A stretch of DNA of 44,297 nucleotides, taken from IMG/VR virus record IMGVR_UViG_3300044533_000683, positions 1 to 44,297 of that record. One strand, 5' to 3'. The number at the start of each line of letters is the position of its first letter. Position 1 is the first letter of the stretch. The notes below the pieces were generated by a model. It saw nothing but the letters and a program-made list of their open reading frames with translations. It did not search any database and was not told the DNA's origin. This stretch comes from a virus. Made by a program: the position numbers and the translations under genes. Positions 5,764 through 23,916 of this stretch are shown in pieces.

Positions 5764-5856
5764 TGCGTTATTATGATTTATATAAATGATTTTGCAAGCA
5801 TTATTTTTATCCACAGAGTTATGCACAAGAAATATAATAAATGCTACCTTTTCTGG

Positions 5857-13265: not shown

Positions 13266-13472
13266 ATGTTCAGTTTGTATCGCACATACAAAAACAAGCA
13301 AGGGCAGGACATAATGCCATTTATTGCATCTTTTGTTATTAAAAAAGATGCGGAATGGTATGCCGAAACTAAAAACGAGGAAGGCGGTTATATCATTCGG
13401 GAGCGTGAAACTGGTATGATATGGCGTATTGATGAAGTGAATGAAAATGAATTGAATAAAGGAGATATATAA
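13266..13472 (+). CDS. Hypothetical protein
   Basis: 68 residues starting at the ATG at 13266, three bases after the SSB stop; an earlier in-frame ATG would overlap SSB by 50 nt. Beta-rich (FSLYRTYKNKQGQDIMPFIA; ERETGMIWRIDEV). Not recognised. GGAG before its end serves the next gene (TAATG junction). Confidence 0.68.
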   Translation: MFSLYRTYKNKQGQDIMPFIASFVIKKDAEWYAETKNEEGGYIIRERETGMIWRIDEVNENELNKGDI

Positions 13473-13755: not shown

Positions 13756-14445
13756 ATGGAAGAAGAACAATCAAAAATAACATTAACCATGGATAAGCAG
13801 CAAATGCTATTCGCTTTGAAAAACTTACGCCTTTTTGTAAGCACAGAAGAAACCCGATATTATCTTTGCGGCGTATATGTTGAATATGATAAAAATGCGG
13901 ACGAATTGATTTTAACCGCAACAGATGGTCATAAATTATGCACCAGCACGTTAAAGCCAATTCAATCGCTTGGCGCAAAAGTTTCACAAAACGCCATTAT
14001 ACCAACCAATATTGTTGATGTTTGCATTAAAGCAATCCAAGAAAGTATTGATGAACTTGACGGACTTAATTTTATTTTTGACAATGAAACATTTGCGCTA
14101 GATTGTTTCGGTCATAAAGTTGAAGGCAGATGCCTTGATGGAACTTATCCTGATTATCGCCGTGCTATTCCAAAGGCTAGTGATGATGATATTGTGGTTG
14201 GTATGAATGACAAGCAATTTTTAGCAGCAGCAAAGGTTTTGAAATCCAATAAGCAACCAATGAAATGGACGTTTTCAGAAGGCGGAAACGTTACAGTTGA
14301 ACCAGTTGATGAAGAAGGCGTAAAAACAAAAATTGTGCTTATGCCTTATCGTGTCAATGGTGAGAACTATAATGAAAAGCGCAAAAAGAACAGCGCACGA
14401 TGCCAAGAAACTCAAGATATGCTTGAAACAGAGGAGGGTATTTGA
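13756..14445 (+). CDS. DnaN-like sliding-clamp protein, two-domain form
   Basis: 229 residues matching the middle and last parts of the bacterial beta clamp: ETRYYLCGVYVEYDKNADEL then ILTATDGHKL (about 33-61), DGTYPDYRRAIP (near 126-137), and a final VLMPYRV, like the clamp's terminal MPMR. The first clamp domain is absent and the last is only about 75 residues, against a normal total near 366. It probably acts as a processivity or polymerase-docking factor, or as a decoy of the host clamp; which is unknown. GAGGAG precedes the ATG. Neighbours are SSB, annealase and a nuclease. Confidence 0.82.
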   Translation: MEEEQSKITLTMDKQQMLFALKNLRLFVSTEETRYYLCGVYVEYDKNADELILTATDGHKLCTSTLKPIQSLGAKVSQNAIIPTNIVDVCIKAIQESIDELDGLNFIFDNETFALDCFGHKVEGRCLDGTYPDYRRAIPKASDDDIVVGMNDKQFLAAAKVLKSNKQPMKWTFSEGGNVTVEPVDEEGVKTKIVLMPYRVNGENYNEKRKKNSARCQETQDMLETEEGI

Positions 14446-14786
14446 TGGTGAATAACATCACCGAAGCGTCATTGCAAAAAGCAGCTATGCAGTGGTTAAA
14501 ACTGCATGGCGTTTTTGCATGGCGTAACAACACTGGAAGCACCAGAACTGCAAGCGGGGGTTATATATCATTTGGCTTGAAAGGCAGTAGCGATATATTG
14601 GCTTTGCATAATGGTGTTGCTTATGCGATTGAGGTTAAAGGGTATAATAAAGCTGGTAAATTAGGCAGGCAATCACCAGAACAAAAAGCGTTTGCGCAAG
14701 ATTGGATTAATGCGGGCGGGGTTTATATTTTACTCACGCCTAATAATTTTAATGATTTAGATATAATATTAAAGGAAAAAACATGA
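14445..14786 (+). CDS. VRR-NUC family nuclease
   Basis: 113 residues with the PD-(D/E)XK fold as found in phage VRR-NUC proteins: N-terminal Glu7 in NNITEASLQKAAMQWLK, Asp50 in LKGSSDILAL, catalytic EVK (63-65), and Gln80 in QSPEQKAFAQDW. Such proteins cut branched or recombining DNA. The ATG at 14445 shares a base with the previous stop (TGATG) and has GAGGAGGG upstream; a TTG one codon earlier is not needed. Position after annealase, SSB and clamp supports a recombination role. Confidence 0.88.
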   Translation: MVNNITEASLQKAAMQWLKLHGVFAWRNNTGSTRTASGGYISFGLKGSSDILALHNGVAYAIEVKGYNKAGKLGRQSPEQKAFAQDWINAGGVYILLTPNNFNDLDIILKEKT

Positions 14787-15472
14787 AAGATGTAATGAAA
14801 TGTGCAATAGAAAATATGCCAAAAGAACTATATAATGCGTTGGTTGCAAAGCCAATTTTAAGCATACCACTTGAAATTGAACCATGGATTAAAGGTGATG
14901 GAATTGAGTTACCTGAAGATATTTGTAATCAAATACGACAAAAATTAACAGGATTTTATTCTGGTTGGTTTTTTGCAAAATTATCAACTCGCTCCCCAAA
15001 AGATTATTTTTCAAATTCGCTTGGTGAAATATATCCAATGAAGCGTATTGAAGATATACAAGATATGTTAGGCGGTTGTTCTATGCGTATATTTGATGAT
15101 TTAGACAAAGCAATGCAAAATGGCACACAATTACAATTACATATCTTGCCATGGGTTTATATTCCACCGCAAAATGAATGGCGTTGCTATGTTCGGGGCG
15201 GTAAATTAATTGCTATATCGCAATATTTTTATAATATTGGCTTTAAGGATTTTACGCCAAATAAAGATAACATTATTTCATTCGCAAGCCAATATTTACC
15301 ACATTTACCAATGCAGGATATAGTGATGGATATTGTTTATGGTAAAGGATTGCTTGAGCTTAATCCTTATGGCAAGTCAGACCCTTGCTTATTCACTTAT
15401 GATGAATTAAACGCTATGGACGGCAGCGAAGTTGCTTTTAGATATAACGTGATAGATAAGGCGAGCGAATGA
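14783..15472 (+). CDS. CDC123-like ATP-grasp protein
   Basis: 229 residues. Visible motifs follow the CDC123/D123 branch of ATP-grasp enzymes: FAKLSTRSPKD (64-74) for nucleotide binding, PPQNEWRCYV (128-137), LIAISQYFYN (142-151), a likely metal-binding Asp183 in VMDIVYG, and LLELNPYGKSD (190-200) followed by LFTYDEL. ATP-grasp enzymes join a carboxylate to an amine or thiol with ATP. The target here is unknown; modification of a host translation or replication protein is one idea. The start overlaps the nuclease end (ATGA) and the stop overlaps the next start. Confidence 0.75.
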   Translation: MKDVMKCAIENMPKELYNALVAKPILSIPLEIEPWIKGDGIELPEDICNQIRQKLTGFYSGWFFAKLSTRSPKDYFSNSLGEIYPMKRIEDIQDMLGGCSMRIFDDLDKAMQNGTQLQLHILPWVYIPPQNEWRCYVRGGKLIAISQYFYNIGFKDFTPNKDNIISFASQYLPHLPMQDIVMDIVYGKGLLELNPYGKSDPCLFTYDELNAMDGSEVAFRYNVIDKASE

Positions 15473-22487: not shown

Positions 22488-22937
22488 ATGAAAAACAATG
22501 CTTTTATATTTGATATTGACGGCACGTTATCAGATACTGCACGTCGCCGTCACCATGTTGAAAAATCACCAAAGAACTGGGACGCATTTTTTGCAGACCA
22601 AATAAACGATGATGCGTTGCCAACGGCTGAGATATTGCGTAAATTATTTGACCATACTTCTTATGAAATATTGATTGTGACTGGCAGGCGTGAAGAATAT
22701 AGAGAAGTCACACAACAATGGCTAAACAAACATAGGTTGAATTGCACTAAATTATTTATGCGCCCTGCTAATGATAAGCGTGATGACACAAATATTAAAC
22801 TAGAAATATACAATAATTATATTAAGCTACACTATAATGTTTTAGCGGTTTTTGAAGATAGATTGCGTTTAGTTCGCATGTGGCGTGAACAAGGTTTATT
22901 TGTATTTAATTGCAATCAAACAGACGAGGATTTTTAA
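22488..22937 (+). CDS. HAD-family phosphatase, polynucleotide 3'-phosphatase-like
   Basis: 149 residues with the HAD motifs: FDIDGTLSD (8-16, nucleophile Asp9 and Asp11), IVTGRREEY (motif II Thr, near 64-72), a Lys in the DDTNIKLEI region, and VFEDRLRLV (motif IV). This layout matches the phosphatase part of phage polynucleotide kinase/phosphatase proteins and related small phage HAD enzymes. No kinase P-loop is present. It could repair nicked tRNA or DNA ends or process nucleotides. Confidence 0.82.
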   Translation: MKNNAFIFDIDGTLSDTARRRHHVEKSPKNWDAFFADQINDDALPTAEILRKLFDHTSYEILIVTGRREEYREVTQQWLNKHRLNCTKLFMRPANDKRDDTNIKLEIYNNYIKLHYNVLAVFEDRLRLVRMWREQGLFVFNCNQTDEDF

Positions 22938-22938
22938 C

Positions 22939-23136
22939 ATGCTAATACCACACAATAACACATTAATCACAGTAAGCGAAATTAAGAAAGGCGAGTTCAC
23001 CGCAAGCAACAACGTGGCTGGTGATATAAATAAAACCTATGCACCCACCGCAGAATTAGCGATTGAGGCAATGAAGGAGCATTTTTTAATGGTAGGTAAA
23101 AAAACATCTTGCGCACGCCCGCAAAATGGTTTATAA
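22939..23136 (+). CDS. Small hypothetical protein ending in repeat 1
   Basis: 65 residues from the ATG at 22939. Beta/alpha (ITVSEIKKGEFTASNNVA; PTAELAIEAMKEHFLMV). Its last 17 or so codons lie in the first 67-bp repeat and overlap the promoter there, so the C-terminus (KKTSCARPQNGL) may be a recent replacement. No family recognised. Confidence 0.62.
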   Translation: MLIPHNNTLITVSEIKKGEFTASNNVAGDINKTYAPTAELAIEAMKEHFLMVGKKTSCARPQNGL

Positions 23137-23150
23137 TACACTTGAAAAAG
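23084..23150 (+). repeat. 67-bp perfect direct repeat, copy 1 (promoter-bearing)
   Basis: Identical to 23423-23489. Starts inside the end of one gene and runs through a complete promoter into the leader of the DUF3310-like gene. Confidence 0.93.
23109..23137 (+). promoter_or_regulatory. Promoter, copy 1, for the DUF3310-like gene
   Basis: TTGCGC (23109-23114), 17-bp spacer, consensus TATAAT (23132-23137). Transcription would begin near 23144, about 37 bp before the next ATG. Confidence 0.8.
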
Positions 23151-23180: not shown

Positions 23181-23438
23181 ATGCAGGATAACATAAACCA
23201 CCCACCGCATTACACATCTCACCCATCAGGAATTGAGTGCGTAGATATTGCCAAGCATCATTGTTTCTGCATTGGTAATGTGTTCAAATATATATGGCGT
23301 GCAGGATTAAAGGATAGCACAACAGAAATAGAAGATTTGAAAAAAGCTGTGTTTTATTTGAATAAAAGAATAGATGATTTAGAGCGTGAGAAAGAAATAA
23401 TAGGTAATATAATAAGCACTAATTTTAATGGTAGGTAA
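23181..23438 (+). CDS. DUF3310-like protein (phage nucleotide kinase-like small protein)
   Basis: 85 residues with the DUF3310 pattern: NHPPHYTSHPSGIECVDIAK (5-24), the central GNVFKYIWRAGLKDS (32-46), and an acidic helical end EIEDLKKAVFYLNKRIDDLE. The family is widespread in phage accessory regions and often annotated as a nucleotide-kinase-like protein; its function is not settled. No Shine-Dalgarno sequence is obvious. The last residues (NFNGR) are encoded by the start of repeat copy 2. Confidence 0.85.
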   Translation: MQDNINHPPHYTSHPSGIECVDIAKHHCFCIGNVFKYIWRAGLKDSTTEIEDLKKAVFYLNKRIDDLEREKEIIGNIISTNFNGR

Positions 23439-23489
23439 AAAAACATCTTGCGCACGCCCGCAAAATGGTTTATAATACACTTGAAAAAG
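23423..23489 (+). repeat. 67-bp perfect direct repeat, copy 2 (promoter-bearing)
   Basis: Identical to 23084-23150, 339 bp downstream. It overlaps the end of the DUF3310-like gene in a different reading frame from copy 1 and leads into the noncoding RNA. Confidence 0.93.
23448..23476 (+). promoter_or_regulatory. Promoter, copy 2, for the noncoding RNA
   Basis: TTGCGC (23448-23453), 17-bp spacer, consensus TATAAT (23471-23476). Predicted transcription start is near 23483. Confidence 0.82.
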
Positions 23490-23783
23490 ATTGCGAACTG
23501 AAACGGCTTTGTATAGAGTTCAAGTTTTATATTTATATAAACTAGGAACGCAATCGCTAATAGGCTCTATAGGATTACACGGTTGCTGACGTGCCTATAT
23601 CCTGTCTCACGTTGCAGGGTTAATCAAATGCTTCAGTTTGAAATTGGGGCTGATATGCTTAATCAGGCAATTACGCTAACTTTGGAATGCGGTTGCGTTC
23701 GGAATTAAGGATTGAGTTTTCTCGGTCGGTTAGCGTCAAGTATTACTTCCCCGCTTTCGTTACTGATGATTGCGGGGGTTTTT
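23483..23783 (+). ncRNA. Structured noncoding RNA of about 300 nt, family unknown
   Basis: No gene fits this stretch, yet it has its own promoter and terminator. Helices seen: a 7-bp closing stem GATTGCG (23489-23495)/CGCAATC (23549-23555); ATAGGC (23560-23565)/GCCTAT (23593-23598), crossed by AGGAT (23571-23575)/ATCCT (23599-23603), a possible pseudoknot; AATTG (23642-23646)/CAATT (23668-23672) continuing as CTGAT (23650-23654)/ATCAG (23662-23666); an 8-bp stem ACGCTAAC (23673-23680)/GTTAGCGT (23729-23736) holding two hairpins, GAATGC (23685-23690)/GCGTTC (23695-23700) and GATTGAG (23710-23716)/CTCGGTC (23721-23727). The last has G-U pairs that keep pairing, a sign of selection. It ends in a terminator and adjoins a tRNA, a context known for large phage ncRNAs such as GOLLD and ROOL, although this RNA is smaller and not recognised as either. 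Confidence 0.75.
23748..23783 (+). terminator. Rho-independent terminator of the ncRNA
   Basis: CCCCGC (23749-23754) pairs with GCGGGG (23772-23777) around a 17-nt loop, with a T-G pair possible at the base (23748/23778), then TTTTT. The U-tract ends one base before the tRNA. Confidence 0.8.
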
Positions 23784-23860
23784 CAGAGTGTGGGAAAATC
23801 TGGTTAATCTTCTGGCTTTGGAAACTAGCGTTGTAGGTTCAAATCCTACCACTCTGACCA
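23784..23860 (+). tRNA. tRNA, probably Pro (anticodon UGG)
   Basis: 77 nt with encoded CCA. Acceptor CAGAGTG (23784-23790)/CACTCTG, discriminator A and CCA; T-arm GTAGG-TTCAAAT-CCTAC is perfect. The D-loop holds the conserved GG. The best anticodon arm is CTGGC-TTTGGAA-ACTAG, giving anticodon TGG; the pair closing the loop is a C-A mismatch, and the D-stem has only about 3 pairs, so identity is less certain than the gene itself. C at position 1 and A at 73 fit bacterial proline tRNAs. Transcripts reaching it must read through the preceding terminator or begin elsewhere. Confidence 0.83.
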
Positions 23861-23899
23861 TTTATCGCTTTGCCACCATTGGCGACCCGATAATCAGTC

Positions 23900-23916
23900 G
23901 GTTACAAATTGTAACC
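23900..23916. repeat. Inverted repeat between tRNA and lysis block
   Basis: GGTTAC (23900-23905) and GTAACC (23911-23916) around AAATT, at the convergence of the tRNA and the minus-strand lysis operon. It could slow transcription from either side; no T-run of terminator quality follows directly. Confidence 0.5.

Follow-up and report, generated by a model that had tools for sequence, protein, structure and literature searches.

Organization of the locus

The window, which denotes here the entire 44,297 bases of the virus record IMGVR_UViG_3300044533_000683, belongs to a tailed phage. The minus strand carries the genes for the large terminase, portal, head protease, tape measure, and phage lysozyme, and the replication-type genes lie mostly on the plus strand. 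The lysis genes at approximately 24,000 close the late (minus-strand) block, and a DUF3310 gene ending at 23438 closes the plus-strand block. Between these converging blocks, two elements are found on the plus strand: a predicted noncoding RNA (23483–23783) and a tRNA-Pro (TGG) with an encoded CCA (23784–23860). The tRNA, called by ARAGORN, begins right after the T run of the RNA terminator, in agreement with the first-pass annotation, which had placed the RNA next to a phage tRNA.

Several further features surround the locus. A gene whose product has a PNKP-type 3' phosphatase domain (HAD_PNKP, 22488–22934) lies near the tRNA, approximately 550 nt upstream of the RNA, and possibly has a role in RNA or tRNA repair. 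A 67-bp perfect direct repeat (23084–23150 and 23423–23489) is located on both sides of the DUF3310 gene, each copy bearing a minus-strand terminator and a plus-strand promoter. The DUF3310 gene looks like a cassette inserted beside the RNA promoter; in a relative, a DUF3310-like frame is reduced to a truncated start and fused to the tail of a neighboring gene. Elsewhere in the window, two DnaA-box-like 9-mers (TTATCCACA and TTATGCACA; 5807–5827) stand directly upstream of a promoter-like TATAAT at 5833, which precedes the rightward early genes, and this pair may mark a possible origin. Positions 13756–14445 encode a phage protein with the central domain of the DNA polymerase III beta clamp (Pfam PF02767), followed by a D123/R2K ATP-grasp protein (14783–15472).

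Predicted ends of the transcript

The candidate promoter of the RNA (23448–23476) consists of a −35 element, TTGCGC (23448–23453), a 17-nt spacer, and a −10 box, TATAAT (23471–23476). The position of the −10 box and the spacer predict an RNA start at approximately 23483. This promoter had been described as near-consensus, which is accurate for its perfect −10 box. The −35 element is weak, matching the consensus at three of six positions, and the site was not listed by a consensus scan. The real support for the predicted promoter is its conservation in an independent homolog, introduced below, in which TTGTCA (five of six matches), a 17-nt spacer, TATAAT, and an identical AAAATGGTTTATAATACACTTGAAAAAG stretch are found. 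At the other end, a rho-independent terminator (23749–23783) is formed by a stem (23749–23754 / 23772–23777) followed by five T residues. It folds with a z-score of −4.7 and is conserved in the homolog, where three one-sided changes keep their pairs and one pair is broken, and the earlier assignment of this element is thus borne out. The terminator ends at 23783, one base before the tRNA-Pro start.

A terminator scan also predicted an intrinsic terminator for leftward (late) transcription on the minus strand (23444–23467; a 9-bp stem followed by seven T residues). It has an identical copy at 23105–23128, and a related hairpin with five T residues is visible in the homolog. Since this terminator overlaps the RNA promoter, leftward late transcription is expected to run antisense through the tRNA and the RNA and to end at the RNA promoter. 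We infer from this arrangement that antisense transcription would tend to turn the RNA off late in infection.

Predicted fold and modules

The 301 nt from the predicted start to the end of the terminator fold at −91.1 kcal/mol, compared with a mean of −73.5 kcal/mol for shuffled sequences (z = −4.0; none of 100 shuffles was as low). The structure can be divided into modules, all on the plus strand. Module A (23483–23558), the 5' domain, contains a 7-bp stem (23489–23495 / 23549–23555) and a small hairpin (C-T-T-T / A-G-A-G; 23507–23518). A 53-nt block, CAAGTTTTATATTTATATAAACTAGGAACGCAATCGCTAATAGGCTCTATAGG (23521–23573), is identical in the window RNA and the homolog. Hairpin B (23568–23599) is built from the pairings 23568–23573 / 23594–23599 and 23578–23581 / 23590–23593, and its loop, GTTGC, is invariant between the two sequences. 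Module C (23605–23668) is a 64-nt domain present in the window. Module D (23673–23736) comprises an 8-bp stem (23673–23680 / 23729–23736) that encloses hairpins 3a (23685–23700) and 3b (23710–23727). Within the RNA body, structure is strongest in module D: the region 23669–23740 has a z-score of −4.6 in the window (none of 200 shuffles was as low) and of −3.0 in the homolog. The previously proposed 8-bp stem around two hairpins is confirmed. Modules A, B, and C, when folded singly, give z-scores of −1.3 to −1.7, which are not unusual, and without its terminator the homolog does not exceed shuffled sequences in stability (z = −0.42).

Substitutions between the window and the homolog were then set against the fold. 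Their alignment has 210 shared columns, of which 23 are substituted, and the substitutions were re-dealt 5000 times over the centroid fold predicted from the window alone. Two pairs were broken, compared with 6.0 expected (P = 0.018), and two two-sided changes occurred, compared with 0.33 expected (P = 0.035). For the minimum free energy (MFE) fold of the A region, seven pairs were broken against 9.0 expected (P = 0.20), a weak result by which that part of the MFE fold is probably wrong. Compensatory changes are located in three hairpins. RNAalifold, applied to both sequences, supports the hairpin at 23507–23518 with two compensatory pairs (T-A to A-T and T-G to G-C). Hairpin B carries one at 23581–23590 (G-C to A-T), and the top of hairpin 3b shows one two-sided change (23715–23722). 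These sites offer better covariation than the 23673–23736 stem, where covarying pairs had been anticipated; this stem is kept, and only one one-sided change (C-G to U-G) separates the two sequences there. Since there is a single independent homolog, covariation is thin, and the two sequences provide indications of the fold that fall short of proof.

Two other helices proposed earlier fared less evenly. The 7-bp 5' stem is present in the window, but one of its pairs (23494–23550) is lost in the homolog by a change from C-G to A-G. The 3' strand of this stem is invariant, and the GTTGC loop of hairpin B, likewise invariant, could be its partner instead. For the crossing pair, which had been given without coordinates, one conserved but tentative candidate (23550–23554 with 23582–23586) was found, which would compete with the 7-bp stem. 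We hypothesize that this pairing may form as an alternative to the 7-bp stem.

The coding potential of the region is low. The longest frames are a 41-aa frame with a TTG start (23583–23708) within the RNA, in which a 26-aa ATG frame is nested, and a 49-aa frame that runs across the terminator and the tRNA. No peptide frame is conserved between the window and the homolog, where the 41-aa frame is truncated, and the earlier view that the region holds no credible gene is upheld.

An independent homolog with gained and lost modules

Scans of 2.9 million viral contigs yielded one identical copy and one independent homolog of the RNA. The identical copy comes from a second metagenome; it represents the same virus and matches the RNA over its full length at 100% identity. 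The independent homolog is found in IMGVR_UViG_3300042894_002964. The lysis genes next to the RNA in this record are 95–97% identical to those of the window, and the gene upstream of the RNA differs, being DUF3310 in the window and an unrelated gene in the homolog. The −10 box, start region, 53-nt block, hairpin B, stem D, and terminator are all kept. Module A occurs twice in tandem with a 79-nt period, and the two copies are identical in sequence. Module C (64 nt) and hairpin 3a (25 nt) are absent, and hairpin 3b is shorter. The gains and losses between the two RNAs thus coincide with the module borders.

The tRNA-Pro is also retained in the homolog, now behind an extra tRNA-Met. These tRNAs lie more than 100 nt further on, after a separate promoter-like TATAAT site, so that the RNA is more than a leader of the tRNA genes. 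Just 3' of the tRNA-Pro, the window contains a palindrome, GGTTACAAATTGTAACC (23895–23916), whose counterpart in the relative is GGTTACAAAACGTAACC (L055, approximately 13414–13440). The arms are retained and the center is altered; an operator-like element and a processing hairpin are possible readings.

Other relatives differ or break off at this junction. Two better relatives, IMGVR_UViG_3300020044_006787 and 3300043436_002927, are uninformative because each contig ends inside the RNA region. Contig ends within the RNA/tRNA/lysis region, seen in two close relatives (contigs of 43,450 and 34,959 bases), may be a sign of repeats or of population variation at this place. In contig 3300037882_003237, the matching place is occupied by an integrase, and the RNA gave no match. 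A tyrosine integrase at the place corresponding to the RNA/tRNA region was noted in a related contig (L061, 13207–14205); the junction is therefore a hot spot of exchange, and some relatives are temperate.

Searches for related RNAs

In Rfam 15 (cmscan, gathering threshold), the tRNA was the only match in the window, and strict and permissive searches of both the window and the homolog returned tRNAs only, all other best matches being far below the threshold. The GOLLD and ROOL models gave no match in either sequence. The RNA is thus not a recognized one, as had been proposed. A blastn search of the window against phage and plasmid records found the tRNA only, and a search of the homolog against phages found nothing. 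Eight scans of viral contigs were conducted, four by DNA pattern and four by neighboring proteins; pattern matches at 11 other loci were attributed to chance by eye or by the covariance model. The DNA-pattern scan of bacterial genomes produced seven chance matches. With the covariance model, four of 398 Pseudomonadota genomes gave weak matches, of a strength that chance alone would produce. No match was obtained among 248 genomes of one order, the order to which the nearest relative identified for an integrase of a related contig belongs. Among 42 DUF3310-bearing and other related phage records, only the identical contig matched. Since exact-pattern scans reach close relatives only, the RNA is rare at that sensitivity. 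A 14-nt likeness between the 5' loop of the RNA and the leader of a 58-aa late gene was discarded, being at about chance level for a region of such size.

Comparison with known phage RNAs

In phage T4, the small stable RNAs RNAC and RNAD lie in the tRNA cluster. A 2022 study describes them as regulatory RNAs of yet unknown function and validates them by Northern analysis (PMC9697503). The window RNA resembles them as a small phage RNA with a function not yet assigned. RNAC and RNAD are classed as late, whereas the window RNA lies where the early block ends, with a host-type promoter, a length of approximately 300 nt, and its own terminator. GOLLD and ROOL are structured noncoding RNAs of phages and prophages, often near tRNA islands, and are characterized by a homo-oligomeric RNA cage (PMC12286853). 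Many GOLLD members exceed 800 nt, whereas the window RNA measures approximately 300 nt. Closer in length is misc_4 of phiR1-37, a 296-nt phage sRNA that acts in trans and has predicted targets (PMC12197685). Like PreS of lambda, it is an intergenic phage RNA whose presumed targets are mRNAs of the host or the phage.

Racrs, the RNA anti-CRISPRs, are also phage noncoding RNAs (PMC10651486). They share with the present RNA the position directly behind a promoter and, in the homolog, a repeated unit. The repeated unit, at 79 nt, is longer than CRISPR repeats, and inspection by eye revealed no likeness to such a repeat. Nor does the locus have the tandem short repeats, terminator, and toxin gene of a type III toxin-antitoxin system: the unit is present in one copy in the window and in two 79-nt copies in the homolog, and a tRNA follows instead of a protein gene.

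Discussion

A predicted promoter-to-terminator unit that folds, is preserved in an independent lineage, and evolves module by module is apparent from the sequences. Promoter, module order, and terminator are conserved in a phage with a different upstream gene, so the central proposal of a dedicated structured noncoding RNA of approximately 300 nt outside Rfam stands. The further suggestion of a new class goes beyond what is shown: with its two sequences, the RNA makes up a new orphan family within a known kind, the phage sRNAs, which it joins by its own promoter and intrinsic terminator, both conserved in the homolog, and by the absence of a conserved reading frame. We infer for it a regulatory role in trans, and our working interpretation, plausible yet held tentatively, is a stand-alone phage sRNA gene whose approximately 300-nt product acts by base pairing.

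Under this interpretation, a host sigma-70-type promoter would transcribe the RNA rightward at the end of the early gene block, so that it would be made by the host RNA polymerase early or in mid-infection and would end at its own intrinsic terminator. Since the tRNA begins where the T run stops, RNase P would cleave any read-through transcript at 23783/23784 and so leave the RNA with an unchanged 3' end. Module A and its neighbor (23521–23573), conserved, AU-rich, and weakly folded, would serve as the active segment and pair with a host or phage mRNA; a chaperone of the Hfq or ProQ type possibly assists. A stabilizing 3' scaffold would be provided by stem D together with the terminator, and the duplication of module A in the homolog would double the active segment. 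The complementarity of accessible conserved segments to the translation starts of the phage was not above shuffled controls; if the base-pairing interpretation is right, the targets are therefore probably in the host.

The main rival to base pairing is a protein sponge, in which the RNA would bind or sequester a protein or ribonucleoprotein, such as a host RNA-binding protein or a defense nuclease, with the repeated module A as the binding unit. We regard it as possible but doubtful. The identical tandem copies in the homolog are as expected of a repeated binding unit, and sequence in module A is conserved more than structure. Decoys for RNA-cutting defenses would also make sense beside a tRNA and near a PNKP-type phosphatase gene. 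However, the unit occurs in one or two copies only, whereas CsrB-type sponges have many, and no protein partner is known. Instead of the many GGA motifs in hairpin loops of CsrA/RsmA sponges, the RNA has only a pair of conserved AGGA motifs, of which one is duplicated in the homolog, and both lie in predicted helices.

An unlikely alternative is that the 300 nt form a cis-acting leader and, as an attenuator, control how much transcription reads through into the tRNA gene or genes. In the window, the terminator abuts the tRNA-Pro with no other promoter between them, so the tRNA must come from read-through of the RNA unit or of the early block, and attenuation is possible there. It does not fit the homolog, in which the tRNAs are distant and stand behind their own TATAAT site, and no T-box or other Rfam leader was found. 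It is quite improbable that the region lacks an RNA function and is either an AT-rich intergenic stretch in which promoter and terminator arose by chance or an element that works at the DNA level. The genome is AT-rich, TATAAT sites occur in it often, and only one independent homolog is available, but promoter, terminator, and helices are conserved amid high gene turnover, and the z-score of the whole RNA is −4.0. A small mRNA or dual-function RNA that expresses the 41-aa TTG frame or the inner ATG frame is the least probable reading, for although an SD-like AGGA is found 8 nt upstream of the TTG and an AGGG 8 nt upstream of the internal ATG, the frame stops after about ten codons in the homolog, which has no module C, and the SD-containing hairpin B covaries as a helix.

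Phage genomes are interpreted almost wholly in terms of proteins and tRNAs, and the window adds a predicted noncoding gene. The RNA gene survived while the adjoining gene was replaced, which indicates that it probably matters to the phage. It forms a testable unit with defined ends and a search model, and the two lineages provide a natural experiment in which the same RNA bears one or two copies of its 5' module. This module-wise remodeling is the interesting part of the finding. It is conceivable, if rather unlikely, that the RNA exemplifies a new modular class of phage RNAs, built on a constant 3' scaffold of stem D and the terminator, to which copies of a conserved 5' active unit, module A, are added or cut back in cassette fashion. 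In such a class, a phage lineage would change the valency or the partners of its RNA with the expression unit unchanged.
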